From IMG/VR virus record IMGVR_UViG_3300042568_000223, positions 1-23,032 of that record: 23,032 nt of DNA, one strand, 5' to 3'. Made by a program: the position numbers and the translations under genes. Numbering within the stretch: position 1 is the stretch's first letter; each line of letters opens with the position of its first letter. The notes below the pieces were generated by a model that saw nothing but the letters and a program-made list of their open reading frames with translations, ran no database searches and had not been told where the DNA came from. Positions 1 to 23,032 of this stretch are shown here, one piece after another. Source of the DNA: a virus.

Positions 1-7
1 AGAAAAA

Positions 8-3000
8 ATGAATGTTGCAAACGCCTCATTTGATCTTATAGAATTATCTCCAAGACTTTCGGTTAACCTATCTAATCAAACAAAGTCTTTCTCTATTACA
101 AAGAGTGCATCTGATCTTGGGATTAGCGGAATGCCAGTTGGACAACTTTTAGCATCTACAGGATCCCTCACTATTTTTGACATTGATGATGCCTTTAACC
201 TAAACAATACAAAGAGCATTGTCCACAACTACCTAACAAGAAATATTCAGTTTAAATTTTATGAAGTTATTGTTGATGTAGCAGGGTATGATTATTACAT
301 ACCAATTAAAACCTTATACTCAGAAGGATTTCCAAAGATAGATCATAATAGCAAAAAGGTGTCTTTAGAACTTAGAGATATGTTCTTTAGGTTTGAATCT
401 ATGACTGCTCCGCAGATGTTGACAACAAATACATCAGTTAGTTCTGCCGTATCTCTTCTTCTAGACTCAGTTGGGTTTTCAAACTACGCATTTAAAAGAT
501 TGCCGAACGAGCCAGAACTAATCATTCCATATTTCTTTATCCCACCAAATAAGACTGTGGCTGAGGTATTGCAGGATCTTGCAATATCTACACAAACAGC
601 AATGTTTTTTGATGAGTATAATAATTTTGTTATGATGAGCAGAAACTATATCATGCCATCATTAAATGATAGAGCAACAGATATTGGAGTGTATGGCGTA
701 GATGATCAGGCAGATACTGGGGTATTGGAAAATGAAACCACTAGATCTGTTCTATCAAATATTATCGGCGTGGCATCTCATGACAACTCCGTATATAATG
801 GCGGAACAATCACATACGATGTAAGGTATATACAGAGATCGGTTGGATCCATAAAGCAAGCAAGTATGATAGATAACGATAAGGTTTGGGTATATAAGCC
901 TGTGCTTCTTTGGGAAGTTAGTGGTAGCGAAAATACAAAATCAATTAACCAAGAGGTAGGCGCTCAGTCTAGTTATGTATTAAGTGCAATCCCAATGAAC
1001 TCATCATTGTCTGACGCTGTTCCAACAGTATCGAACCATGTTGTTATAAATAACGTTATTGATTTAGGAGAGGGGGTCTACTGGATCCCAAGATATAATG
1101 GATATTTTTATGCAAATGGGGAGATTATAAAATTTGATGCAGTAGAGTATAATGTTGCTGGTGTTGGTAACGTATGGATTAACGGTGTAGAAGAATATCA
1201 AAACTACTTCTCAAAACTTCCTTTTAATGGAAAGATCTACCCAACTGGATTAGTCAGAATATATTCAGAACCCAACTACGAAACAATTAATGGAACTACA
1301 CGACTTACTAACGGATCTGTAGCAAAACATGGTCGTGGTCAGTTTAACACAAAGATAGTATCTCACGATGCTGGAATAAACGAATACTGGACCAACGATA
1401 ATAATGTTAGAGGTTGTGTCATGGACTCAGACTTACTATTCAATTCTGTAAAAGTTACTGCTGATGGAAAGGATTACCAGACAGCAAAAACATCGGGACT
1501 TACAACTTTAAAGGAGTTCACATTTGATTTAGAAGATGGCCCTGCTGGAATAAGTTTAGACACTGCAAAAAAGTCTTCACGTAATGGTATTATTAAAAAC
1601 TTCTTATCTTCTTCTTATAAAAATGAAAATGATGTAAAGTCTTTGCTATCAACACAAAGTGGAACAATTCAGTCTTCCGCACTTGTATTTAACGGTCCAA
1701 CCTTTAATACTGCTGAAACATCTGCAAACTATGTTTCATATGTTTACAAAAAACTAACAGATAGTTATAAGAGTTTTGGAACAAGGATGAGAATTGTTGG
1801 TAAAATTGAATCAAACAAGGATAAAACTCAAAGCATGGTTGGAGGAAGTCAATACTATACCGTTACGGGGCTAACCCCAGATACCGATATTTATGTTACT
1901 GGAGGCTCTGGCGGAATTGCTGTATTGCTAAATCCAGAAACAAACAACGGATATTACTTTGAAATCGGAGCACTTAGCACATACAAGGTTGACTCAACTA
2001 ATACAAATGTAAACAATATATTCTTTTATAAAATTGCAAAAGAAGTTGGATCTTCAAATTCAGATAAGGCCATCCCAATTAAGTTGTGGGAAGGCTTAAC
2101 AAATATAGTTGTTGATGATGGAAGATTTACTGGTCAATATAGAATGGTTGCGGAACAAACTCCAACAGTCTATGACTTAAATGTTGAGTATGAAAAAACT
2201 TCTAGCGGATTAAGGTTTTATCTATTTATAAACGGAAACCAAGTTGCAGTAGTTGACGACACAAGCCCACTGCCAGTATACTCAAATATGGCACTTTTTG
2301 TCAGGGGATCTGCAAAGTGTATGTTTGAGCACATATATGCTATTACAAATAACTATACACAAAATACTGCCTATTCTATAGATACACCAGTAAATAAGAT
2401 TTATGCAGATAAGGAGATAGATACCAATGCTGCATTCTCTAAGTATGCTATGTCTGGAGTTGTTCAAGGGACATACTTATCAGGTATAAGTCCATACCAG
2501 CCACCAGAGCACAGAATGTATTTTGATGAATTTGGAACAATCATGAGAGAGGCAGCGCTATTTGATGTTAAGTATGACAAGGCTTGGCCAGCACTTTTTG
2601 CAAAGATGTCGCCTACTTTTAATAGGCTAAAGGGATACACTGTATCTGGTTTCCGTGCAGGGTCCTATGGTGCAGAGTTTATGGTTTTTAATGCTACAGA
2701 TACTGCACTTAGTTTAGACGAAACAACTGGAAACTATCTTAGGATTCAAGGAATTACATTTACTCAAAATTCTCAAAACGATTTAACTGTAGATTCTTAT
2801 TTTTCTAAAAATAGCGACTTTTCAAATCCAGAACTTTCTGGAACAACAGTTCTTGTTTCTCCAGAAAAAACCAAACAAGAGTATCAAGACATTAAAATAA
2901 GCAGAATGACACATGGTAAAAAAGAATTCTCATTAAACGTTCCATATATACAGACGCAGGATGATGCTAATAGTTTAATGGGCTGGATGATTAAAAAAAT

Positions 3001-3202
3001 TATGAAGCCTAGACAGTCCATTGGCTTACAGATTTTTGCAAACCCAATGATTCAACTTGGAGATATTGTAGAGGTATCATACGTTAAAGACAATATTGAT
3101 ATTTTAGGATCACTTGATAAAAGGTTTGTAGTATACAATATAGAATATAGCAAAGATGAGTCAGGCCCATCAATGTCGCTATACGTTAGTGAGGTATTGT
3201 AA
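8..3202 (+). CDS. Tail hub / minor tail protein with central LamG-like domain
   Basis: Probable tail-tip (baseplate hub or minor tail) protein of 1064 residues. The N-terminal ~215 residues are beta-rich and include a segment of the type seen in gp27-like hub proteins (about 140-213: a helix, then PPNKTVAEVLQDLA and an aromatic strand pair). The C-terminal ~105 residues (about 960-1064, with LGDIVEVSY and a final VVYNIEYS strand) also look hub-like. Residues about 555-775 resemble a LamG/concanavalin-type jelly roll (YYFEIGAL, LRFYLFINGNQVAVVDD, MALFVRG), which in other tail proteins is often a glycan-binding module. The frame is open upstream to the window edge, so the ATG at 8 may be internal, although AGAAAAA just before it could serve as a weak ribosome site. 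The stop overlaps the next ATG (TAATG). The tail role is fairly secure; the domain names come from reading by eye. Confidence 0.7.
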   Translation: MNVANASFDLIELSPRLSVNLSNQTKSFSITKSASDLGISGMPVGQLLASTGSLTIFDIDDAFNLNNTKSIVHNYLTRNIQFKFYEVIVDVAGYDYYIPIKTLYSEGFPKIDHNSKKVSLELRDMFFRFESMTAPQMLTTNTSVSSAVSLLLDSVGFSNYAFKRLPNEPELIIPYFFIPPNKTVAEVLQDLAISTQTAMFFDEYNNFVMMSRNYIMPSLNDRATDIGVYGVDDQADTGVLENETTRSVLSNIIGVASHDNSVYNGGTITYDVRYIQRSVGSIKQASMIDNDKVWVYKPVLLWEVSGSENTKSINQEVGAQSSYVLSAIPMNSSLSDAVPTVSNHVVINNVIDLGEGVYWIPRYNGYFYANGEIIKFDAVEYNVAGVGNVWINGVEEYQNYFSKLPFNGKIYPTGLVRIYSEPNYETINGTTRLTNGSVAKHGRGQFNTKIVSHDAGINEYWTNDNNVRGCVMDSDLLFNSVKVTADGKDYQTAKTSGLTTLKEFTFDLEDGPAGISLDTAKKSSRNGIIKNFLSSSYKNENDVKSLLSTQSGTIQSSALVFNGPTFNTAETSANYVSYVYKKLTDSYKSFGTRMRIVGKIESNKDKTQSMVGGSQYYTVTGLTPDTDIYVTGGSGGIAVLLNPETNNGYYFEIGALSTYKVDSTNTNVNNIFFYKIAKEVGSSNSDKAIPIKLWEGLTNIVVDDGRFTGQYRMVAEQTPTVYDLNVEYEKTSSGLRFYLFINGNQVAVVDDTSPLPVYSNMALFVRGSAKCMFEHIYAITNNYTQNTAYSIDTPVNKIYADKEIDTNAAFSKYAMSGVVQGTYLSGISPYQPPEHRMYFDEFGTIMREAALFDVKYDKAWPALFAKMSPTFNRLKGYTVSGFRAGSYGAEFMVFNATDTALSLDETTGNYLRIQGITFTQNSQNDLTVDSYFSKNSDFSNPELSGTTVLVSPEKTKQEYQDIKISRMTHGKKEFSLNVPYIQTQDDANSLMGWMIKKIMKPRQSIGLQIFANPMIQLGDIVEVSYVKDNIDILGSLDKRFVVYNIEYSKDESGPSMSLYVSEVL

Positions 3203-6724: not shown

Positions 6725-7032
6725 TGGCCGAACGCAAAGACCGAATGGCTTTGCTTTCACGCTACAGCAAACACCATACTGCAAAGTATGAGCAAAAGCC
6801 ATCACTTAATTTAAATGTTGAACAATGGGCGTCTGACGCTCTCATTGAATCTTATGGAATAAGCAAGTGCTACGACTTATTGGAGTATTACTTTTCTGTT
6901 TCTCAATCTCCGTCTTGGAACTATTTTGCATACAATGCTGAAAAGATATTGCAGGCAAGGCTTGATAAAGAGCAAGATGATAAAGACAGATCAGAGAGGC
7001 GCAAAAAGGCTAAGGAATGGTTGAATGGATAA
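6724..7032 (+). CDS. Small helical protein, unknown; possible replication accessory
   Basis: 102 residues, mostly helical, with a basic N-terminus (MAERKDRM) and a strongly charged C-terminal helix (KEQDDKDRSERRKKAKEW). The middle has an aromatic block (WASDALIESYG, YDLLEYYFSVSQSPSWNYF). There is no enzyme motif. It overlaps the preceding stop and the next start (ATG 7025 lies 8 bases before its end), so it belongs to the replication transcript. A helicase-loader-like or DNA-binding role is only a guess, made because DnaB follows two genes later. Confidence 0.55.
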   Translation: MAERKDRMALLSRYSKHHTAKYEQKPSLNLNVEQWASDALIESYGISKCYDLLEYYFSVSQSPSWNYFAYNAEKILQARLDKEQDDKDRSERRKKAKEWLNG

Positions 7033-7723
7033 TCTTGTAGTTGCATTTCTTACATGTGGAAGAGAAGAATATCTGGATGATACAATCTCGTCCTGGGAAT
7101 CTTTGTCTAAGATAGATGAGTATGCTCGAATTATATTTGATGATTCTGGTAATGCAGATTACAGAAGTATGCTATCTAAAAAATATCCACAATATAAAGT
7201 TGTTGCGATATCAGATAGTAATCTTGGATTAAACTATGCCTACAATTTTGCTTTTAAGTATTTAAAGCAGTCAGGGTTTGAGTTCACTCTTTGGATTGAA
7301 GATGATCAGAAGTTATTAAAGTCCCTTGACTTAGAAGATATGGTAGATGTATTAAAGAATAACAACCTGTTGCAGTTGTCTACAATTAGAAAGCCTTTCT
7401 TTTATAATGAGTTAGGATATAAAAGTGTTGTAGAATTTTTAGTTAAGACTGGTTGGCCCATTGAACAAAGAGATAAGTTTGTTATTCATTCTGCAATGTG
7501 GGCAAACCATCCAAATATTTTTATGAATAGCATTTTAGAAGTAGAGTATCCAGCAGACCTTGACACAGCAACATCGGAAATGAGATTTGGTAAAAAACTT
7601 TTAAGTTATTTTCCACGCAGAACCTTTGGGTTTTATGGTAATATAGATGATGAACCGCAATCAGAGCACATAGGAAAAAATAGTATGAATACGATCAATT
7701 ATTATTGGGGGGAAGATGAATAA
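7025..7723 (+). CDS. GT-A fold glycosyltransferase-like protein
   Basis: 232 residues with the outline of a family-2-type glycosyltransferase. A nucleotide-binding start (LVVAFLTCGREEYLDDTISS) is followed by FDDSGN (Asp39-Asp40), then SNLGLNYAYNFAF, then a DxD-like metal site in LWIEDDQ (Glu92-Asp93-Asp94). Tryptophan- and aromatic-rich segments follow, and the length is about right for a minimal GT-A enzyme. It would transfer a sugar from a nucleotide-sugar donor; the acceptor (phage DNA, virion protein or host envelope) cannot be read from sequence. It lies within the replication operon just before DnaB, with an 8-base overlap on both sides, which is unusual for an envelope-modifying enzyme and makes DNA modification worth considering. 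Confidence 0.6.
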   Translation: MDNLVVAFLTCGREEYLDDTISSWESLSKIDEYARIIFDDSGNADYRSMLSKKYPQYKVVAISDSNLGLNYAYNFAFKYLKQSGFEFTLWIEDDQKLLKSLDLEDMVDVLKNNNLLQLSTIRKPFFYNELGYKSVVEFLVKTGWPIEQRDKFVIHSAMWANHPNIFMNSILEVEYPADLDTATSEMRFGKKLLSYFPRRTFGFYGNIDDEPQSEHIGKNSMNTINYYWGEDE

Positions 7724-10163: not shown

Positions 10164-10820
10164 ATGAGCGTAGTAAAGGGATTAAAAGCAATCAACGCCC
10201 TGCTCGACAAGCCAAAGTATGACGAAAACTCACCAAAGGTTAAGTGGCTAAAACTTGCCGATGGTCAATCAGTAAAGATCCGATTCATTGAAGAGTTGGA
10301 CGAAGACTCTGCAAACTATAGCGAAGAGCGTGGACTTGCACTTGTTGTAAAGGAACACACAAATCCAAAGGACTATAAGCGTAAGGCTGTAGACACAATG
10401 GATACAGAAGGCCGTGACTGGGCTGAAGAAATGCATCGCAAGGATCCAAAGGCTGGCTGGAGAGCACGTCTTCGTTTCTATTGCAACGTTCTAGTTGACG
10501 ACGGCATTGAAGCACCATATGTTGCTATCTGGTCAATGGGTATCAGTAAGCAATCATCATTTAACACAATTCGTGAGTATGCACTTGAAACAGGAAGCAT
10601 CTCAAACATTCAATGGAAGTTAAAGCGTAATGGTCAGGGAACTGAAACAAACTATACACTTATTCCATCTGCTCCAGACAAGGAGCCTTTTAACTGGGGA
10701 GAGATTAAGCCTTATCCCCTAGAACTTGCTTTGCGTAAGGTTCCATATGCTGAACAAGAAGCGTTCTACCTTGGATTTGATTCACCATCAATCACTTCGT
10801 CAACGAATGCTGACTGGTAA
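10164..10820 (+). CDS. ssb: Single-stranded DNA-binding protein (gp2.5/gp32-like)
   Basis: 218 residues in the layout of phage ssDNA-binding proteins of the T4 gp32 / T7 gp2.5 kind. A basic N-terminus precedes an OB-like core (VKWLKLADGQSVKIRFIEEL, then aromatic/basic strands KAGWRARLRFYCNVLV and APYVAIWSMG). It ends in an Asn-Ala-Asp-Trp tail rather than the acidic DDDIPF tail of bacterial SSB. It has the strongest ribosome site in the window (AAAGGAGA) and its own promoter, as expected for a protein needed in quantity. It would coat single strands for DnaE and RecA. The assignment is by order and composition, since this family is poorly conserved. Confidence 0.65.
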   Translation: MSVVKGLKAINALLDKPKYDENSPKVKWLKLADGQSVKIRFIEELDEDSANYSEERGLALVVKEHTNPKDYKRKAVDTMDTEGRDWAEEMHRKDPKAGWRARLRFYCNVLVDDGIEAPYVAIWSMGISKQSSFNTIREYALETGSISNIQWKLKRNGQGTETNYTLIPSAPDKEPFNWGEIKPYPLELALRKVPYAEQEAFYLGFDSPSITSSTNADW

Positions 10821-10823
10821 TCA

Positions 10824-13800
10824 ATGAACTATGTAGGCTTACATGTCCATACACACTATTCATTATTTGATGGTGTCGCTACTCCAGAAGAATACATTGA
10901 CCGTGCAGTTGAGTTAGGGATGCCAGCAATTGCCATCACTGACCACGGAACTTTATCTGGGCATAGGGAACTGCACCGTATTGCAAAAGCGAAGGGTATT
11001 AAGCCTATACTTGGTGTAGAAGGCTATATGTGTCAAGATAGATTTGATACTAGAGATAAGTCTGAAAGAGATGGAGATCTAGATCTAGTCTACAACCATA
11101 TAGTCCTTCTCGCCAAGAACCAAATTGGTTTAGAGAATCTAAATAAGATTAATGAAATTGCTTGGACAGAAGGGTTTTTCAAGAAGCCAAGATTTGACTT
11201 TGAAATTCTTGAAAAATATGCAGAGGGTATTATTGTTACTTCTGCTTGCCCAAGTAGTGTTTTAGTAAAGGCACTTGAGAACAACGAGTTTGCTATTGCT
11301 AAGAAGCACATTGAATGGTTTAAACGTGTATTTAATGATGACTATTATATTGAGGTAATGCCACACAATCCAGCAGAAATTAATAAGCAACTTATTGCTT
11401 TGGCTGATGAGTTTGGAGTCCAGGTTGTTGTAACTCCTGACTGCCACCACAGCACAACAGATCAAAAAGAAATTCAAGAATTTAAACTTCTTCTTAATAC
11501 ACACGTAAAGATTGACAAAGAGCATACATTTGAAAAATCTAAAAAGCAACCAGATATGATGAAGCGTCTTGATTATTTGTATGGCGAAGATAGACAGATC
11601 ACTTTTAATAAGTTTGATATTCATTTGCTATCTTATGAAGAAATGAAATCTGCTATGGAAGCACAGGGAATTAACCGTCCAGATATCTACTCTAATACGC
11701 TTGCTATTGCTGAAAAAGTTGGGGACTATGGAATTCAAGAAGGACTAAACCTACTTCCAGTCCAATATAAGAATCCAGATAGAGAGTTAAGAGAAATTGC
11801 CTTAGAGGGATTGATTCAAAGAGGCATCGTAGATAACCAGGAATACCTAGATAGACTAGATGAAGAACTCTCAGTCATTAAAGATAAAAAATTTGCTCCA
11901 TACTTTCTTGTAGTTAGAAATATGATTGCTTGGGCCAAGAAGGAAGGAATCATGGTTGGTCCTGGCCGTGGTTCTGCTGCAGGATCTTTGTTATGCTATG
12001 CACTAAGCATTACAGATATTGATCCAATTAAGCACGGACTTCTCTTCTTTCGTTTTATTAATCCAGATCGTAATGACTTCCCTGATATCGATACAGACAT
12101 TCAAGATTCTCGTCGTGAAGAGGTTAAAGATTATCTAGTTAGACAGTATAGGCACGTTGCATCTATTGCTACTTTTCTTTCCTTTAAAGACAAAGGTGTT
12201 GTAAGAGATGTTGCAAGAGTTTTAAACATTCCACTTACAGATGTTAATAAGGTTTTAAAGTTAGTTGATACTTGGGATGATTTTTGCACATCAAAAACAA
12301 CACGTGAGTTTCGTGAAAAATATCCAGAGGTAGAGATTTATGGAGAGCAACTCCGTGGTCGTATTAGAGGCACTGGAATTCACGCTGCTGGTGTTGTTAC
12401 TAGTAAAGATCCTATTTTTAGATTTGCACCAATGGAGACCCGTTCTTCTACAGGTAGCGATGAGCGCATTCCCGTTGTTGCGGTTGATATGGAAGAGGCA
12501 GAAAGAATTGGTCTGATTAAGATTGATGCTTTGGGTCTTAAGACTTTATCCGTTCTTAAGGATACCGTAGATATGATTAAAACAAATCATTACAAAGACA
12601 TTAACTTGTTGGAGATTGACATGTCAGATGCCAATGTTTATGAGATGCTATCTAGTGGTTATACAAAGGGTGTGTTTCAGTGTGAAGCAACGCCATACAC
12701 AAACCTTCTTGTTAAGATGGGTGTAAAGAACTTTAATGAACTTGCTGCATCTAATGCTCTTGTTAGACCAGGCGCTATGAATACAATTGGAAAAGACTAC
12801 ATTGATCGTAAACATGGTCGTCAAAATATTAGTTATACTCACCAAGTATTGAAAGAATTTACGGAGGAAACTTATGGTTGTATTCTTTACCAGGAACAAG
12901 TTATGCAAGCATGCGTATCTCTTGGAGGTATGTCCATGTCGGAAGCAGATAAAGTTAGAAAAATCATTGGAAAGAAAAAAGATGCTAAAGAGTTTGACCA
13001 GTTTAAAGACAAATTTGTCGAAGGTGCTTCTCGTTTTGTTTCTCCTAACACTGCTCGTGATTTGTGGCATGATTTTGAAGCACACGCAGGGTATTCATTT
13101 AATAAGTCTCACGCAGTAGCATACTCTACACTGTCTTATTGGACAGCATGGTTAAAGTATCACTATCCTCTAGAATTTATGTTTGCCCTTCTGAAGAACG
13201 AAAAGGATAAAGATGGTAGAACTGAGTATCTGATTGAGGCAAAGCGTATGGGAATTTCTATCAAACTTCCACACATCAACGATTCAGATGCAGACTTTAA
13301 GATTGAAGGCAAGGGCATTAGGTTTGGGCTGACTGGAATTAAGTATATATCTGACAACATTGCCAGCAAGTATATTGCAGGAAGACCCTTTACATCTTAC
13401 AAGCAACTAGAAGAGTTTACCTTTACTAAGGGTAATGGAGTAAATAGTCGTGCACTCCAGGCACTAAGAGTTATTGGAGCAGCAACATTTACAGACAATC
13501 CAAGAAACGACAATGAGATAAAAGAAAATCTATATGAATACTTAAACTTGCCAGAGTTTAATCTGGTTGTTCCTTCACACTACTATGCGTTTATACAGGA
13601 TGTAGAGGAGTTTGAGGAAAAGGGATCCTACATTTTACTTGGCATGGTAAAATCAATTAAGAGAGGAACGGGGTGGTCACGAGTTGAAGTTTTGGACAAG
13701 ACTGGCAGTATTGGTATATTTGACGATGAAGCAACCACTATTGAGACTGGTCGTAGTTATCTTATTCTTGCAAACGATAATCGGATTGTATCTGCAATAC

Positions 13801-18404: not shown

Positions 18405-18927
18405 AGATGATTTAGTTAAGCATTTAGATCAAGTCAACCTTGTTGTTGAAGAGTATCTTAAAGGGAACGATCCAACTGTAATCTCTAAGCAGTTATCGAT
18501 ACCAAGACAAAGAGTGGTAACACTTATTAACGAGTGGAAGGTTATGGCATCTGCTAATGATGCTATTCGTGCTCGTGCCAAAGAAGCGCTTGCTGCAGCA
18601 GATACACACTATAGCAAGTTGGTTTCTCGAACATATGAAGTTATTGATGAAGCATCTATGACTAATAACCTTAGTGCTAAGACTGCTGCAATTAAACTTG
18701 TAATGGATATCGAATCAAAGAGAATTGACATGCTTCAAAAGGCTGGACTGCTTGAAAACAAAGAACTGGCTGAAGAGATGATGGAAATTGAAAAGCGTCA
18801 AGAAGTTCTTATGTCTATTCTAAAAGACATTGCAGCAGAATATCCACAGGTTCGTGATGACATTATGCGTAGACTATCTGCAGTATCTAAAAAGGATGAG
18901 GTAATAACTGTTGTCCACGGAGTTTAA
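18394..18927 (+). CDS. terS: Probable small terminase subunit
   Basis: 177 residues, all helical. Residues about 20-47 contain a helix-turn-helix (GNDPTVISKQLSIPRQRVVTLINEW) that could recognise packaging DNA. A long central helical region follows (about 55-130), of the type that oligomerises in small terminase rings, and the C-terminus is charged. The gene lies immediately before the large terminase and overlaps its start by 17 bases, which is the strongest argument. I see no sequence motif unique to the family, and other DNA-binding regulators could look alike. Confidence 0.65.
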   Translation: MSTEDDLVKHLDQVNLVVEEYLKGNDPTVISKQLSIPRQRVVTLINEWKVMASANDAIRARAKEALAAADTHYSKLVSRTYEVIDEASMTNNLSAKTAAIKLVMDIESKRIDMLQKAGLLENKELAEEMMEIEKRQEVLMSILKDIAAEYPQVRDDIMRRLSAVSKKDEVITVVHGV

Positions 18928-20692
18928 TGATTTCTTTGAAGCACTTAAAGATAATCACTTTGCAGAAACACCAGTAGACGCAAAGACGTTTGTTGAGGGT
19001 GAGCAATATCTAAATCAGCCTGGACTATCTGATATTCAATACGATATTGTTGAAGCAATGAGCCAGATATATCGTAAAGAAGACCTTATAGATCTTTTGG
19101 GTGCTGAAGAAGGTGCCAGATATTATGAAAAATATACTAAAAATGAAATCATTCTGCAACTTGGCAAGGGATCTGGAAAAGACTTCACATCAACAGTAGC
19201 CTGCTCATACATAGTATACAAACTACTGTGTCTAAAAGAACCTGCAAGATACTTTGGAAAACCTGTCGGAGATGCTATCGACCTTATTAACGTTGCTATT
19301 AACGCTCAACAGGCAAAGAATGTTTTCTTTAAAGGATTTAAGAATAAGATTGAAAACTCTCCCTGGTTTGCTGGAAAGTTTTATGCAAAGGCTGACTCTA
19401 TAGAGTTTGATAAGTCAATCACAGTTTATTCTGGTCACTCAGAAAGAGAATCCCACGAAGGTTTGAACCTTATTCTTGCAGTTCTTGATGAGATTTCTGG
19501 TTTTGCATCTGAAATTGGAAGTGGTAATGATCAGGGAAAGACTGCGGAAAATATCTACAAGGCTTTCCGTGCATCTGTAGACTCTCGTTTCCCTGACCTT
19601 GGTAAGGTTGCACTGCTTTCATTCCCACGATATCCAGGTGACTTTATTTCAGAAAGATATGATGCGGTTATTGCTGAAAAAGAGGCTGTAGAAAAGACTC
19701 ACAAGTTTGTTATTAATCCTTTACTGCCAGATGATTCAGCAGATAATACTTTTGAAATTTCTTGGGATGAAGATCATATTCTTTCATACAAATACCCAGG
19801 AGTATTCGCATTAAAAAGACCTACCTGGGAAGTAAATCCAACACGCAAGATTGATGATTTTAAGATTGCATTTATGACTGATCTAGGAGATGCTATGCAG
19901 CGTTTTGCATGTGTCCCTACGTTTGCATCTGATGCATTTTTTAAGCAGATTGAAAAAGTAAGAAACTGTATGGTGTCAAGAAACCCTATCGATACCTTTA
20001 AAAGGTTTGACGAAAACTTTAAGCCAGATCCAAACAAGATATACTATGTCCACGCCGACCTTGCACAAAAGCATGACAAGTGTGCAGTTGCTATTGCCCA
20101 TGTTGACAAATGGGTTAATGTTCAGGTAATCAAAGACTACGAGCAGGTCGCACCCATAGTAATAGTAGATGCTGTTGCTTGGTGGGAGCCAAAGGTTGAA
20201 GGCCCAGTAAATCTTTCAGAAGTAAAACAGTGGATCCAAAATCTTCGTAGACTAGGATTTAATATTGGAATGGTTTCGTTTGACCGTTGGCAATCTTTTG
20301 ATATTCAAAATGAATTGAAGCAAGTAGGAATGAGAACTGATACTGTTTCTGTTGCTAAAAAACATTATGAGGATATGGCAATGTTAGTGTATGAAGAAAG
20401 ACTTCTTATGCCAGCCATTGAACTTCTGTTCGACGAACTAACACAACTAAAGATCATGAAAAATGATAGAGTTGACCACCCCCGCAAAAAGTCAAAGGAC
20501 TTGGCTGATGCTGTGTGTGGAGCAATATTTGGGGCAATATCACATACCCCAAGAGACCTTAACCTTGAAGTTGATATTCACACAATTAGTGATCGACCTA
20601 AGCAAGTTGACAGGCCTGAAGACAATGTGATACAATATAAACCTATGCCAAACGATGTAAAAGATTATTTGGATAGACTAAATCTACTATAA
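18911..20692 (+). CDS. terL: Terminase large subunit
   Basis: 593-residue packaging motor and nuclease. ATPase: Walker A-like LGKGSGKD (84-91, Lys90, with Asp91 where Thr/Ser is usual) and Walker B LAVLDE (Asp193-Glu194). Nuclease (RNase H fold): Asp383 in VHADLA, Asp458 in VSFDRWQ, and Asp530/Asp533 in DLADAVCGA. It cuts concatemers and drives DNA into the capsid. The start is TTG 18911, preceded by AAGGATGAGG; no in-frame ATG occurs near. Its 3' end holds the promoter for the following gene (20607-20636). The absence of portal and capsid genes right after it means other modules lie beyond the window. Confidence 0.9.
   Translation: MSTEFNDFFEALKDNHFAETPVDAKTFVEGEQYLNQPGLSDIQYDIVEAMSQIYRKEDLIDLLGAEEGARYYEKYTKNEIILQLGKGSGKDFTSTVACSYIVYKLLCLKEPARYFGKPVGDAIDLINVAINAQQAKNVFFKGFKNKIENSPWFAGKFYAKADSIEFDKSITVYSGHSERESHEGLNLILAVLDEISGFASEIGSGNDQGKTAENIYKAFRASVDSRFPDLGKVALLSFPRYPGDFISERYDAVIAEKEAVEKTHKFVINPLLPDDSADNTFEISWDEDHILSYKYPGVFALKRPTWEVNPTRKIDDFKIAFMTDLGDAMQRFACVPTFASDAFFKQIEKVRNCMVSRNPIDTFKRFDENFKPDPNKIYYVHADLAQKHDKCAVAIAHVDKWVNVQVIKDYEQVAPIVIVDAVAWWEPKVEGPVNLSEVKQWIQNLRRLGFNIGMVSFDRWQSFDIQNELKQVGMRTDTVSVAKKHYEDMAMLVYEERLLMPAIELLFDELTQLKIMKNDRVDHPRKKSKDLADAVCGAIFGAISHTPRDLNLEVDIHTISDRPKQVDRPEDNVIQYKPMPNDVKDYLDRLNLL
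20607..20636 (+). promoter_or_regulatory. Consensus-like promoter for the secreted-protein gene
   Basis: TTGACA at 20607-20612, an 18-base spacer, then TACAAT at 20631-20636 with TGA before it (extended -10). It lies inside the terminase gene and gives a leader of about 68 bases. A second TATAAT at 20688-20693 has no -35. Confidence 0.6.
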
Positions 20693-20710: not shown

Positions 20711-21850
20711 ATGAACTCATTTAAGAAAATCGCACTAGCCGTGGTTGCAGCCATGACTTTGGGCACAATGGTAGCAACACCTGCAAGTGCTGCTGTAATG
20801 TCAGTTGCTGTAGATCTTGCTGGAACGGCTAATACAACCGCTTCATCAATCTCAACACCTGCATCATTGCCAGTCCCTGCAGACAACACAGTTGACGCTG
20901 CTGACGCACTAAAGTTCGTCGCAACAGTTGACACAGGAACAGTCGTTTCTGTGGTAGCAACAAACGCAACAATCGTGTCTGCACTACACACATCTGCTGC
21001 ACCAGTAGGAGCATCATCAGGTTCTTCAACTTTGACAATCGCAACTGGCACAGGAACAACTGCAACATTCTGGGTATACACAAAGACCACAGCAATTGGA
21101 ACAGTAACAGTTACCAATCAGGGAACTACATTTACATACTACGTTCAGGGAACTGCTGGTAAGATTAATAACCTTACACTTTCAGCACCTGCAACTGGCG
21201 CTGCTGGAACAAAGCAGGACATCACTGTAACAGCAACAGACGCATTCGGAAACAAAGTTTCTGGTAAGTCAATTACTGCAACAGTATTTGCTGCAACAGC
21301 AACACTAGACACAGCAACAGCAACAACTGGTGCTACACTTTCAGACTTTGGAGTTGCTACATTTAAGGCAACACTTCCAACAACTGGAACACGCTCACTT
21401 ATTACATTTGCTCCAACAACATCTTCAGATGCTGTGGCTGCTGCTGTAACAGGTTTGACCGCTCCAACACTCGCACCGTTTGCAGAGATTACAGTTCGTG
21501 ATCTAGCATCAGAACTTTCTGCACAGGTTGCAGCAAAGGATGCAGCGCTTGCTGCAAAGGCTGCTGCAGATGCTGCACTTGTTAAGGCAACAGCAGAGCA
21601 TACTGCTCTAATTGCTGCTGAGAAGGCTGCTTCTGCTAAGGCACTTGCCGATGCAAAGATTGCTTCAGACAAGGCACTTGCAGATGCAAAGGCTGCTTCT
21701 GACAAGGTTATCCTTGATAAGGATGCAACAATTGCTAAGTTGACTGCAGATAATGCTGCTGCACTTAAGGCAATTAAGACATCATTCAATGCACTTGCTA
21801 AGAAGTGGAATGCAAAGAATCCAAAGGCTAAGGTTACTTTACTTAAGTAA
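20711..21850 (+). CDS. Exported Ig-like/coiled-coil surface protein (moron candidate)
   Basis: 379 residues. Residues 1-27 form a signal peptide (basic FKK, hydrophobic core, ATPASA then A), with likely cleavage after Ala27. Next comes an Ala/Thr/Ser-rich beta region (about 28-150), then an Ig-like domain (about 151-240, with LTLSAPATGAAGTKQDITV and DAFGNKVSGKSI, typical of bacterial Ig/invasin-like folds). A long Ala/Lys-rich coiled coil follows (about 265-360, with 11-residue repeats), and the C-terminus is basic (KKWNAKNPKAK). Exported, probably surface-attached. Codon and amino-acid composition (GCA/GCT, ACA) is markedly G+C-richer than its neighbours. With its own promoter and terminator it fits a moron. 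I recall similar proteins in low-GC freshwater actinobacteria, but cannot verify this. The start has AAAAGGA 9 bases upstream. Confidence 0.75.
   Translation: MNSFKKIALAVVAAMTLGTMVATPASAAVMSVAVDLAGTANTTASSISTPASLPVPADNTVDAADALKFVATVDTGTVVSVVATNATIVSALHTSAAPVGASSGSSTLTIATGTGTTATFWVYTKTTAIGTVTVTNQGTTFTYYVQGTAGKINNLTLSAPATGAAGTKQDITVTATDAFGNKVSGKSITATVFAATATLDTATATTGATLSDFGVATFKATLPTTGTRSLITFAPTTSSDAVAAAVTGLTAPTLAPFAEITVRDLASELSAQVAAKDAALAAKAAADAALVKATAEHTALIAAEKAASAKALADAKIASDKALADAKAASDKVILDKDATIAKLTADNAAALKAIKTSFNALAKKWNAKNPKAKVTLLK
21626..21724 (+). repeat. Three tandem 33-base (11-residue) repeats
   Basis: Three in-frame units, 21626-21658, 21659-21691 and 21692-21724, encode AASAKALADAK, IASDKALADAK and AASDKVILDKD. 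The 11-residue period suits a hendecad coiled coil. The units are similar at the DNA level too, which suggests recent duplication within the surface-protein gene. Confidence 0.7.
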
Positions 21851-21864
21851 TTAATCCAACAACT

Positions 21865-21897
21865 AAGGGGATTGGCTAAGTGCTAGTCCCCTTTTTT
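21865..21897 (+). terminator. Intrinsic (rho-independent) terminator
   Basis: Left arm AAGGGGATTGGC (21865-21876), loop TAAGT, right arm GCTAGTCCCCTT (21882-21893), followed by a T-tract to 21897. The stem is 12 pairs with two wobble pairs and begins 14 bases after the stop of the exported-protein gene. It is the only clear terminator in the window. Confidence 0.85.
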
Positions 21898-21908
21898 GTG
21901 CAATAAAA

Positions 21909-21917
21909 TGGTATAAT
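21909..21917 (+). promoter_or_regulatory. Extended -10 promoter for the PA14 gene
   Basis: TGGTATAAT (TATAAT at 21912-21917), the same AATGGTATAAT context as at 5358-5368. No -35 is possible, as the upstream bases are the terminator's T-tract. Transcription would begin near 21924. Confidence 0.55.
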
Positions 21918-21925
21918 CATCCTAT

Positions 21926-21940
21926 CAGACATCATGTCTG
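21926..21940 (+). repeat. Palindrome over the start of the transcript (candidate operator)
   Basis: CAGACATCATGTCTG is a perfect inverted repeat with 7-base arms around a single C. It covers about +3 to +17 of the predicted transcript, a typical repressor position, and could also form a small RNA hairpin just ahead of the ribosome site. Confidence 0.5.
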
Positions 21941-21955
21941 CAAGGGGGAAAGGTA

Positions 21956-23032
21956 ATTAAACGACTACTAAGAATAGTAACAGCCACAGTTTTAGCCTTT
22001 GGCTGGCTACTTATAGCCCCCCAAGAAGCCCACTCTGATGATCCACTAACAGTGGCAGCACAAGAAATACAAGAACTTAACGATAGTGTATATGATCTTG
22101 GCTACCAAGATGACCTTATAGATCTTATAGACATAGCAGAAAATAAGTTTGCCTTAGCCACAAATGCGAAGGAACTTAAAGATGATGCCTATGATGCCCA
22201 CGAAGATGCAGTAGAGGCAGAAGCCACAGCCTTAGAAGCAAAGAACCTTGCCCAGTCAAATGTGGATGGTCAGACAGCCACAGTAGCCTTGGCCCTTGAA
22301 CATAAAGACAACGCCCTTGAAGAAAAGAATGATGCTCAAGATGCACTCAGCATAGCCAATATTAATGTTCAAACTACTCAATCAAGTATGCAGAGTGCTG
22401 GAGGAACAGGTTTGGCATACACTGTTTATACTCTTGTTAGGCAGGGTAATGTTGCTACCCCAGGATCTGTTCTTTGTTCTGGCACCTGGAACTCAGGCCA
22501 TATGAGTCTTCCAGTGTGCGGAAATAGATATGAAAACCTTATAGTTAAATTTACTGGACAGATAACAGCCCCTTCATGGTTTACACAAACCTACTTTGCA
22601 GGATATACGGATGATGGTTTTAGAATGTATGTTGACGGGCAACTTGCTGTTGATAACTGGGTAGAGCAAGGGACAACTTGGAGCGATTACTCTCCCGTAT
22701 ATGATGTTAGTGAAGACAAAACTTTAGATGTAGAAATATGGTGGTATAACGGTGGAGGACCAGGTTCCTATCATCTTGGCTGGGCTATACCTGGTGGATG
22801 GACTGGAGCAGGATGTGATTATGCTGGAAATCCAAGAGTCTGGGGACAAAATTTTAGTTGTAATCTTAATACATTTTCTTCTGGATCAGGACCAACTCAA
22901 TCACAAATAAATGCTTACAATGATGCTGTTGCAGCACAGGCTATAGCACAAACAAACTATAACAATAAATTGGCAGTATACAATGACAAACTAAGCGTAT
23001 ACAACTCTGAAAATGCAACACTGTCATCAATG
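21956..23032 (+). CDS. Exported coiled-coil / PA14-like domain protein (partial at window end)
   Basis: An open frame of 359 codons that runs off the window. The proposed start is ATT 21956, 7 bases after the GGGGG of AAGGGGGAAAGG, because no ATG, GTG or TTG is in frame between the stop at 21914-21916 and the GTG at 22052. From ATT the protein begins with a signal peptide (KRLLR, hydrophobic core to about residue 20, likely cut near AHS, residue 27). An acidic/Ala-rich coiled coil follows (about 30-140). Then comes a PA14-like beta domain (about 152-282, with FAGYTDDGFRMYVDGQLAVD). Four cysteines (174, 188, 287, 302) could form disulfides outside the cell. A second coiled coil begins near 313. 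PA14 domains usually bind carbohydrate. A surface-binding role is inferred; a virion fibre is an alternative. Confidence 0.65.
   Translation, partial: MKRLLRIVTATVLAFGWLLIAPQEAHSDDPLTVAAQEIQELNDSVYDLGYQDDLIDLIDIAENKFALATNAKELKDDAYDAHEDAVEAEATALEAKNLAQSNVDGQTATVALALEHKDNALEEKNDAQDALSIANINVQTTQSSMQSAGGTGLAYTVYTLVRQGNVATPGSVLCSGTWNSGHMSLPVCGNRYENLIVKFTGQITAPSWFTQTYFAGYTDDGFRMYVDGQLAVDNWVEQGTTWSDYSPVYDVSEDKTLDVEIWWYNGGGPGSYHLGWAIPGGWTGAGCDYAGNPRVWGQNFSCNLNTFSSGSGPTQSQINAYNDAVAAQAIAQTNYNNKLAVYNDKLSVYNSENATLSSM

Follow-up and report, generated by a model that had tools for sequence, protein, structure and literature searches.

A possible phage-made fibrillar adhesin with exchangeable tips and ATG-free start codons, encoded at the end of an IMG/VR virus contig

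The last open reading frame of the 23,032-nt IMG/VR virus contig IMGVR_UViG_3300042568_000223 (hereafter the window, i.e., the whole stretch of DNA that was analysed) raises the question of what a phage does with an exported protein that carries a PA14-like domain between two coiled coils, and with which partner it does so. A first-pass annotation had described a signal peptide, a coiled coil, a PA14 domain, a second coiled coil and four cysteines, and had proposed that the protein acts at the surface of the infected cell as one half of a two-gene system with the adjacent Ig/coiled-coil protein. All of the described elements are present in the frame, which remains open up to the window end, with 359 residues visible and the remainder lost at the contig end:

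21956..23032, + strand: PA14 surface-protein gene, the 5' 359 codons of about 709, running off the window end
21956..22036, + strand: signal peptide of 27 aa; its non-ATG start, in the window ATT, is conserved (pN/pS and start-codon survey)
22109..22396, + strand: coiled-coil arm 1, residues 52-147 (AlphaFold2 helix)
22403..22891, + strand: tip, PA14 domain, residues 150-312 (Pfam, profile-to-PDB and AlphaFold2/Foldseek)
22475..22861, + strand: four cysteine codons at 22475, 22517, 22814 and 22859 (C174, C188, C287, C302; from the sequence)
22610..22615, + strand: Asp219-Asp220, invariant in 42 tips and aligned with MhPA14
22898..23032, + strand: coiled-coil arm 2, residues 315-430, truncated at the window end (AlphaFold2 helix)

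The rest of the gene was read from L002, a relative that is 99.7% identical over the visible stretch and carries the complete gene (709 aa); the full-length features described here (spacer, C-terminal domain, tail) are taken from it. From its N-terminus the protein comprises the signal peptide, the first helical arm, the PA14 tip, the second helical arm, the spacer, the C-terminal domain and the tail. In L002 the Pro-rich spacer is a Pro/Glu/Thr repeat (PxEP) of about 100 residues, and its length varies among relatives from 94 to 144 aa. A conserved C-terminal domain of ~150 residues sits between the spacer and a hydrophobic tail that ends in RR (residues 689-707, hydropathy 1.9; 1.16-2.0 across members, some of them only moderately hydrophobic, with a low-confidence AlphaFold2 helix). 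The domain search matched no known anchor domain in the protein. IMG/VR holds 556 related stretches, so the observation is not due to chance. One further member of the family, A0A6J5NKY8 from an uncultured Caudovirales phage (BFVD/UniProt; 707 aa, 64% identical along its full length), differs in bearing just the automatic name 'PA14 domain containing protein', and we found no description of this family's architecture, tip exchange or start codon in the open-access literature. The full protein had no match in isolated phages (tblastn against INPHARED). Among bacterial genome contigs neither the PA14 protein, at the sensitivity used, nor its Ig/coiled-coil neighbour found a relative, and a cellular origin was dropped on the basis of these scans.

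The PA14 assignment held up under structure prediction: when the AlphaFold2 model of the tip was compared with the PDB by Foldseek, the best matches were nearly all PA14 domains (E from 8e-6). The Pfam match to PF07691 lies just above the cut-off of 24 (E 1.6e-5, 25.2 bits) and falls below it in some relatives (15-23 bits), and a profile of 42 tips retrieved the PA14 domain of RsgI3 (E 3.8e-19), 6qdi (7.3e-18) and MhPA14 (3.8e-7) from the PDB. Asp219-Asp220 is invariant in the 42 tips, down to 22% identity, and aligns with the D-cis-D pair Asp136/Asp137 of MhPA14, which holds Ca2+ and sugar (PMC6650083); because of this invariance and alignment the tip likely binds sugar. The tip thereby resembles the RTX adhesin modules MhPA14 and MpPA14 in its fold and, residue for residue, in the Asp-Asp Ca2+/sugar motif. 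The whole protein has exactly four cysteines, invariant in 75 aligned full-length relatives. Since the L366/L372 type retains only the first pair, they suggest two separate disulfides.

Both helices flanking the tip (52-147 and 315-430) were modelled by AlphaFold2 at pLDDT mostly above 90. Sequence distances of arm 1 and arm 2 are strongly correlated across 75 sequences (Mantel r 0.84; partial r 0.75 once the other segments are controlled for), whereas arm 2 and the tip, which are adjacent in sequence, are uncorrelated under the same control (partial r -0.06). Part of the co-variation of the arms reflects shared ancestry; the controls for this are the partial correlation and the lack of correlation with the tip that lies between the arms. 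Because the arms co-vary across the tip lying between them, they probably pair as an antiparallel hairpin with the tip at its end. Streptococcal antigen I/II (P1/SpaP), a wall-associated protein, likewise has a tip between two pairing stalk arms and a Pro-rich part; the likeness is one of architecture, and unlike in the PA14 protein one arm of antigen I/II is alpha-helical, the other polyproline, and the protein is sortase-anchored. P1 has a centrally located adhesive domain (PMC8286594). In RTX adhesins, too, the ligand domain buds out of a split support domain (PMC12077191), as the tip would here, but these proteins are Gram-negative, type I secreted and much larger, with an Ig-like support in place of the coiled coil.

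The signal peptide, IKRLLRIVTATVLAFGWLLIAPQEAHS, with cleavage before DD, was recognised by eye and by selection. Its first codon is ATT, and a standard ORF caller picks GTG 22052 as the start, thereby dropping the signal peptide. Taken at face value, that start would leave the signal-peptide region untranslated and make the product a cytoplasmic coiled-coil protein. Standard gene callers do begin there, but we find this hardly credible: the signal-peptide codons have a pN/pS of 0.30 (338 non-independent pairs), a conserved Shine-Dalgarno sequence stands at the right distance from the upstream start, and half of the relatives have TTG at exactly the same codon. Furthermore, 15 of 43 upstream regions of the AUU/AUA/AUC type contain an in-frame stop just upstream and no ATG, GTG, TTG or CTG able to keep the signal peptide; in some relatives the stop codon is immediately 5' of the ATT, with no other usable start. 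On the strength of the pN/pS value and of these stops the signal-peptide region is evidently translated. Across 117 distinct upstream regions the start codon is TTG (63), ATT (24), ATA (22) or ATC (8) and never ATG or GTG, in contrast to other genes of the same phages (ATG in 80/80 for the Ig gene and in 71/71 for the next TM gene). In Staphylococcus aureus, expression from AUU and AUA starts behind an extended Shine-Dalgarno sequence is about 10% of that from AUG, and IF3 modulates such starts (PMC13009471). By analogy, the start codons suggest that the protein is translated sparingly in the phage host. If the protein does act at the cell surface, the gene is a natural example of near-forbidden start codons that evolution has kept in a single phage gene, and of surface remodelling that gene callers hide because the ATT start strips the signal peptide from the annotated protein.

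Four elements precede the start:

21865..21893, + strand: terminator-like hairpin with T run, separating the Ig/coiled-coil gene from the PA14 gene (hairpin scan)
21909..21917, + strand: extended -10 promoter-like element TGGTATAAT (conservation only)
21926..21940, + strand: 5' stem-loop CAGACATCATGTCTG, closely preceding the ribosome-binding site (relatives and folding)
21942..21948, + strand: strong Shine-Dalgarno sequence AAGGGGG (conserved in ATT/ATA/ATC-type relatives)

The promoter-like element recurs in most relatives whose upstream regions were compared; a simple consensus promoter scan does not list it. Folding of the stem-loop is not significant in the window alone (z -1.2) and is stronger in the L067 and L073 types (z -3.5 and -3.9). 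A stem-loop after the extended -10 element also occurs in the upstream regions of L067, L073, L142, L168 and L225, with differing stem sequences, and is absent from the TTG type of L049; it looks as if the hairpin, and not its sequence, is what is kept in several lineages. The terminator-like hairpin suggests that the Ig/coiled-coil gene and the PA14 gene are transcribed separately. The scan that found it returned one such hairpin against 1.5 expected by chance from shuffles, and many relatives have similar hairpins.

The identity of the partner was decided by counting loci. Two genes upstream of the PA14 gene are relevant here:

18911..20692, + strand: terminase large subunit (Stanwilliamsviridae, about 54% identity over the full length)
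20711..21850, + strand: exported Ig/coiled-coil protein, 379 aa, a frequent, non-obligate neighbour (ORF list and locus counts)

Of 100 informative loci, 77 have the Ig/coiled-coil gene next to the PA14 gene and 13 have it at another place in the retrieved sequence; in the other 10 it was not seen. In a second phage lineage the Ig/coiled-coil gene is some 7-8 kb away on the downstream side, and the PA14 gene retains its other neighbour. Co-occurrence of the two in other phages is therefore common and not obligate, and of the proposed two-gene surface system the surface-fitting anatomy is supported and the partnership with the Ig/coiled-coil protein is not. The obligate partner is instead a two-TM protein (~68 aa) encoded directly downstream of the PA14 gene in all 117 informative loci (113 counted, plus four whose two-TM start overlaps the stop codon), and the two genes form a unit. 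The Shine-Dalgarno sequence of the two-TM gene, AGGAGG, is contained in the final codons of the PA14 gene, and at 78 further loci found via the two-TM gene the C-terminal domain precedes it every time. Apparent non-ATG starts of the two-TM gene probably stem from alignment to longer N-termini. The two-TM protein has no match in isolated phages.

An obligate, translationally linked partner with two hydrophobic segments could also be holin-like, and the PA14 protein would then be a wall-crossing component of lysis or envelope remodelling late in infection, with its tip on wall glycan. A second TM protein usually comes next (weak holin match, phrog_443, E 0.008), a CHAP endolysin is encoded within about 3-10 kb, and a toxic envelope protein might need a near-forbidden start codon. 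However, the position of the CHAP endolysin is widely variable and unlinked, several lineages have no second TM gene after the unit, the protein has no catalytic domain, and lysis does not need exchangeable sugar-binding tips. We therefore regard a lysis role as quite unlikely.

The exchange of tips is apparent when the gene is set against the rest of the phage. The phage backbone resembles that of Stanwilliamsviridae in its terminase and in gene order (tail, helicase, DnaE, MazG, RecA, Cas4, RuvC, terminase), a resemblance rather than a formal taxonomic placement; at a GC content of 37%, a low-GC actinobacterial host is plausible. Three N-terminal classes occur on one C-terminal domain with its two-TM partner: PA14, an unrelated beta domain that sits between the same arms as PA14, and a stalkless third domain. 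All three are carried by a common spacer, anchor and tail, and PA14 tips diverge down to 22% identity. Tip distance is uncorrelated with terminase distance (r 0.01, 89 loci): near-identical PA14 tips occur in phages at terminase distances of 0.46-0.49, and different tip classes in phages at a distance of 0.02 (2% difference). The tail proteins of the second lineage are only 24-30% identical to the window's, yet its PA14 protein is near-identical. This pattern fits a tip that is exchanged between phages and behaves as an accessory surface gene, which argues against a part of the virion.

A tail fibre or decoration protein with a PA14 receptor-binding tip would, admittedly, also be expected to swap tips, as receptor-binding proteins typically do, and PA14-like and other lectin folds are known in phage structural proteins, some of the BFVD matches being annotated as structural. 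Nevertheless, the signal peptide is under selection, the Pro-rich spacer and the hydrophobic, TM-like RR tail do not suit a virion protein, and the gene is located after the terminase, about 15 kb away from the tail genes. Together with the near-identical protein in phages of such dissimilar tails, this makes a virion component very unlikely; we rejected identity as a phage tail fibre since the gene lies outside the tail module and is decoupled from tail and terminase similarity.

The second tip (L142, L153, L161, L164, L165, L167, L168, L170) is 91-98% identical among its members though their stalks differ, and for this reason appears to have spread recently. It has no match in Pfam and none by Foldseek at E 1e-3, the model being poor (pLDDT 55); with weak carbohydrate-module and jelly-roll-like matches only, we claim no fold for it. 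The stalkless third domain, joined to the common C-terminal domain and tail and accompanied by the two-TM partner, is found in L410, L396, L407, L364, L409, L379, L386 and L402 and has no match in Pfam or PDB.

We tentatively interpret the PA14 protein, at somewhat short of an even chance, as a phage-made fibrillar adhesin, i.e., a membrane-anchored lectin that the infected cell, probably an actinobacterium, would display on its envelope. The gene would be transcribed from its own promoter-like site and translated sparsely from an AUU, AUA, AUC or UUG start behind a strong Shine-Dalgarno sequence, and the product exported by Sec. Its hydrophobic C-terminal tail would remain in the membrane, accompanied or chaperoned by the co-translated two-TM protein, the Pro/Glu/Thr spacer of 95-145 residues would cross the cell wall, and the two long helices would pair as an antiparallel hairpin and expose the tip outside the wall, where it could bind glycan through Ca2+ at the Asp-Asp site. 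The most likely use would be occupation of the cell's own surface glycans by the tip, such that further virions, whether competitors or progeny, adsorb less (superinfection exclusion or adsorption interference). Given the surface topology, the architecture and the recombination pattern make this adsorption role possible, though we hesitate to call it probable; low expression fits poorly with stoichiometric receptor masking and counts against it.

The same anatomy would also suit a surface adhesin that mediates adhesion between cells or between cells and particles, with progeny released near new hosts and no masking of receptors. In RTX adhesins, PA14 tips bind cells and cause them to aggregate (PMC12077191; PMC6650083). 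Few copies would be enough, matching the weak start codons, but there is no evidence of partner cells. The hosts, moreover, are presumably planktonic and dilute, which we count against adhesion, and on balance we consider it unlikely.

Our preferred reading, a lectin displayed on the infected cell, can be compared with described systems. Fibrillar-adhesin-like proteins combine an extracellular signal, an adhesive domain (PA14 being named as promiscuous), a rod-like stalk and a surface anchor (PMC8286594). The present family has the adhesive domain (PA14 in most members) and a rigid stalk, here paired helices of about 100 residues, which the third-tip proteins lack. In contrast to the bacterial proteins it is phage-encoded, carries its adhesive domain between the two arms of a probable helical hairpin and has, in place of a sortase or SLH anchor, a new C-terminal domain with a hydrophobic tail and a two-TM partner. 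Ltp-type superinfection-exclusion lipoproteins are likewise phage-encoded, on the Gram-positive host surface and horizontally spread; Ltp is, however, a small lipoprotein directed against the tape measure protein, with no PA14, stalk or wall spacer (PMC3952083). Identity with this type was rejected, as the PA14 protein has no lipobox (no signal-peptide cysteine) and no match to such a family. Each element is already known. For their combination in a phage, with a new anchor cassette, swappable tips and ATG-free starts, we found no earlier description, nor did we find a phage PA14 surface protein of this kind described in the open-access literature. If the reading is true, an abundant aquatic phage group coats the infected cell with a lectin that is modular and exchangeable, and the tips are a directly testable set for phage-phage competition and surface glycan recognition. 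A broader version, which we put forward as speculative and somewhat unlikely, is a general platform for surface display by phages, in which a constant cassette (spacer, C-terminal anchor domain, tail, two-TM partner) would carry at least three swapped, unrelated tips of glycan-binding type in two distant phage lineages and, at a low or late dose set by obligate IF3-sensitive starts, control which virions adsorb.

Several other genes were noted in passing. The tail protein at window positions 2-3202 is cut by the contig start (relatives' frame, about 1440 aa), and a glycosyltransferase-like protein with weak TAGT and phage glycosyltransferase matches is encoded at 7025-7723. Downstream of the PA14/two-TM unit, L002 encodes an HslV-like peptidase (L002 9650-10174), an exported protein that weakly matches a phage protease family (10410-11186) and a Nol-like carbamoyltransferase (11370-12791). 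In L067, a short gene just after position 12085 that starts MRKIVSIALAGLLMVSLTGCDS, a likely lipoprotein, adjoins the two-TM gene of the second lineage.
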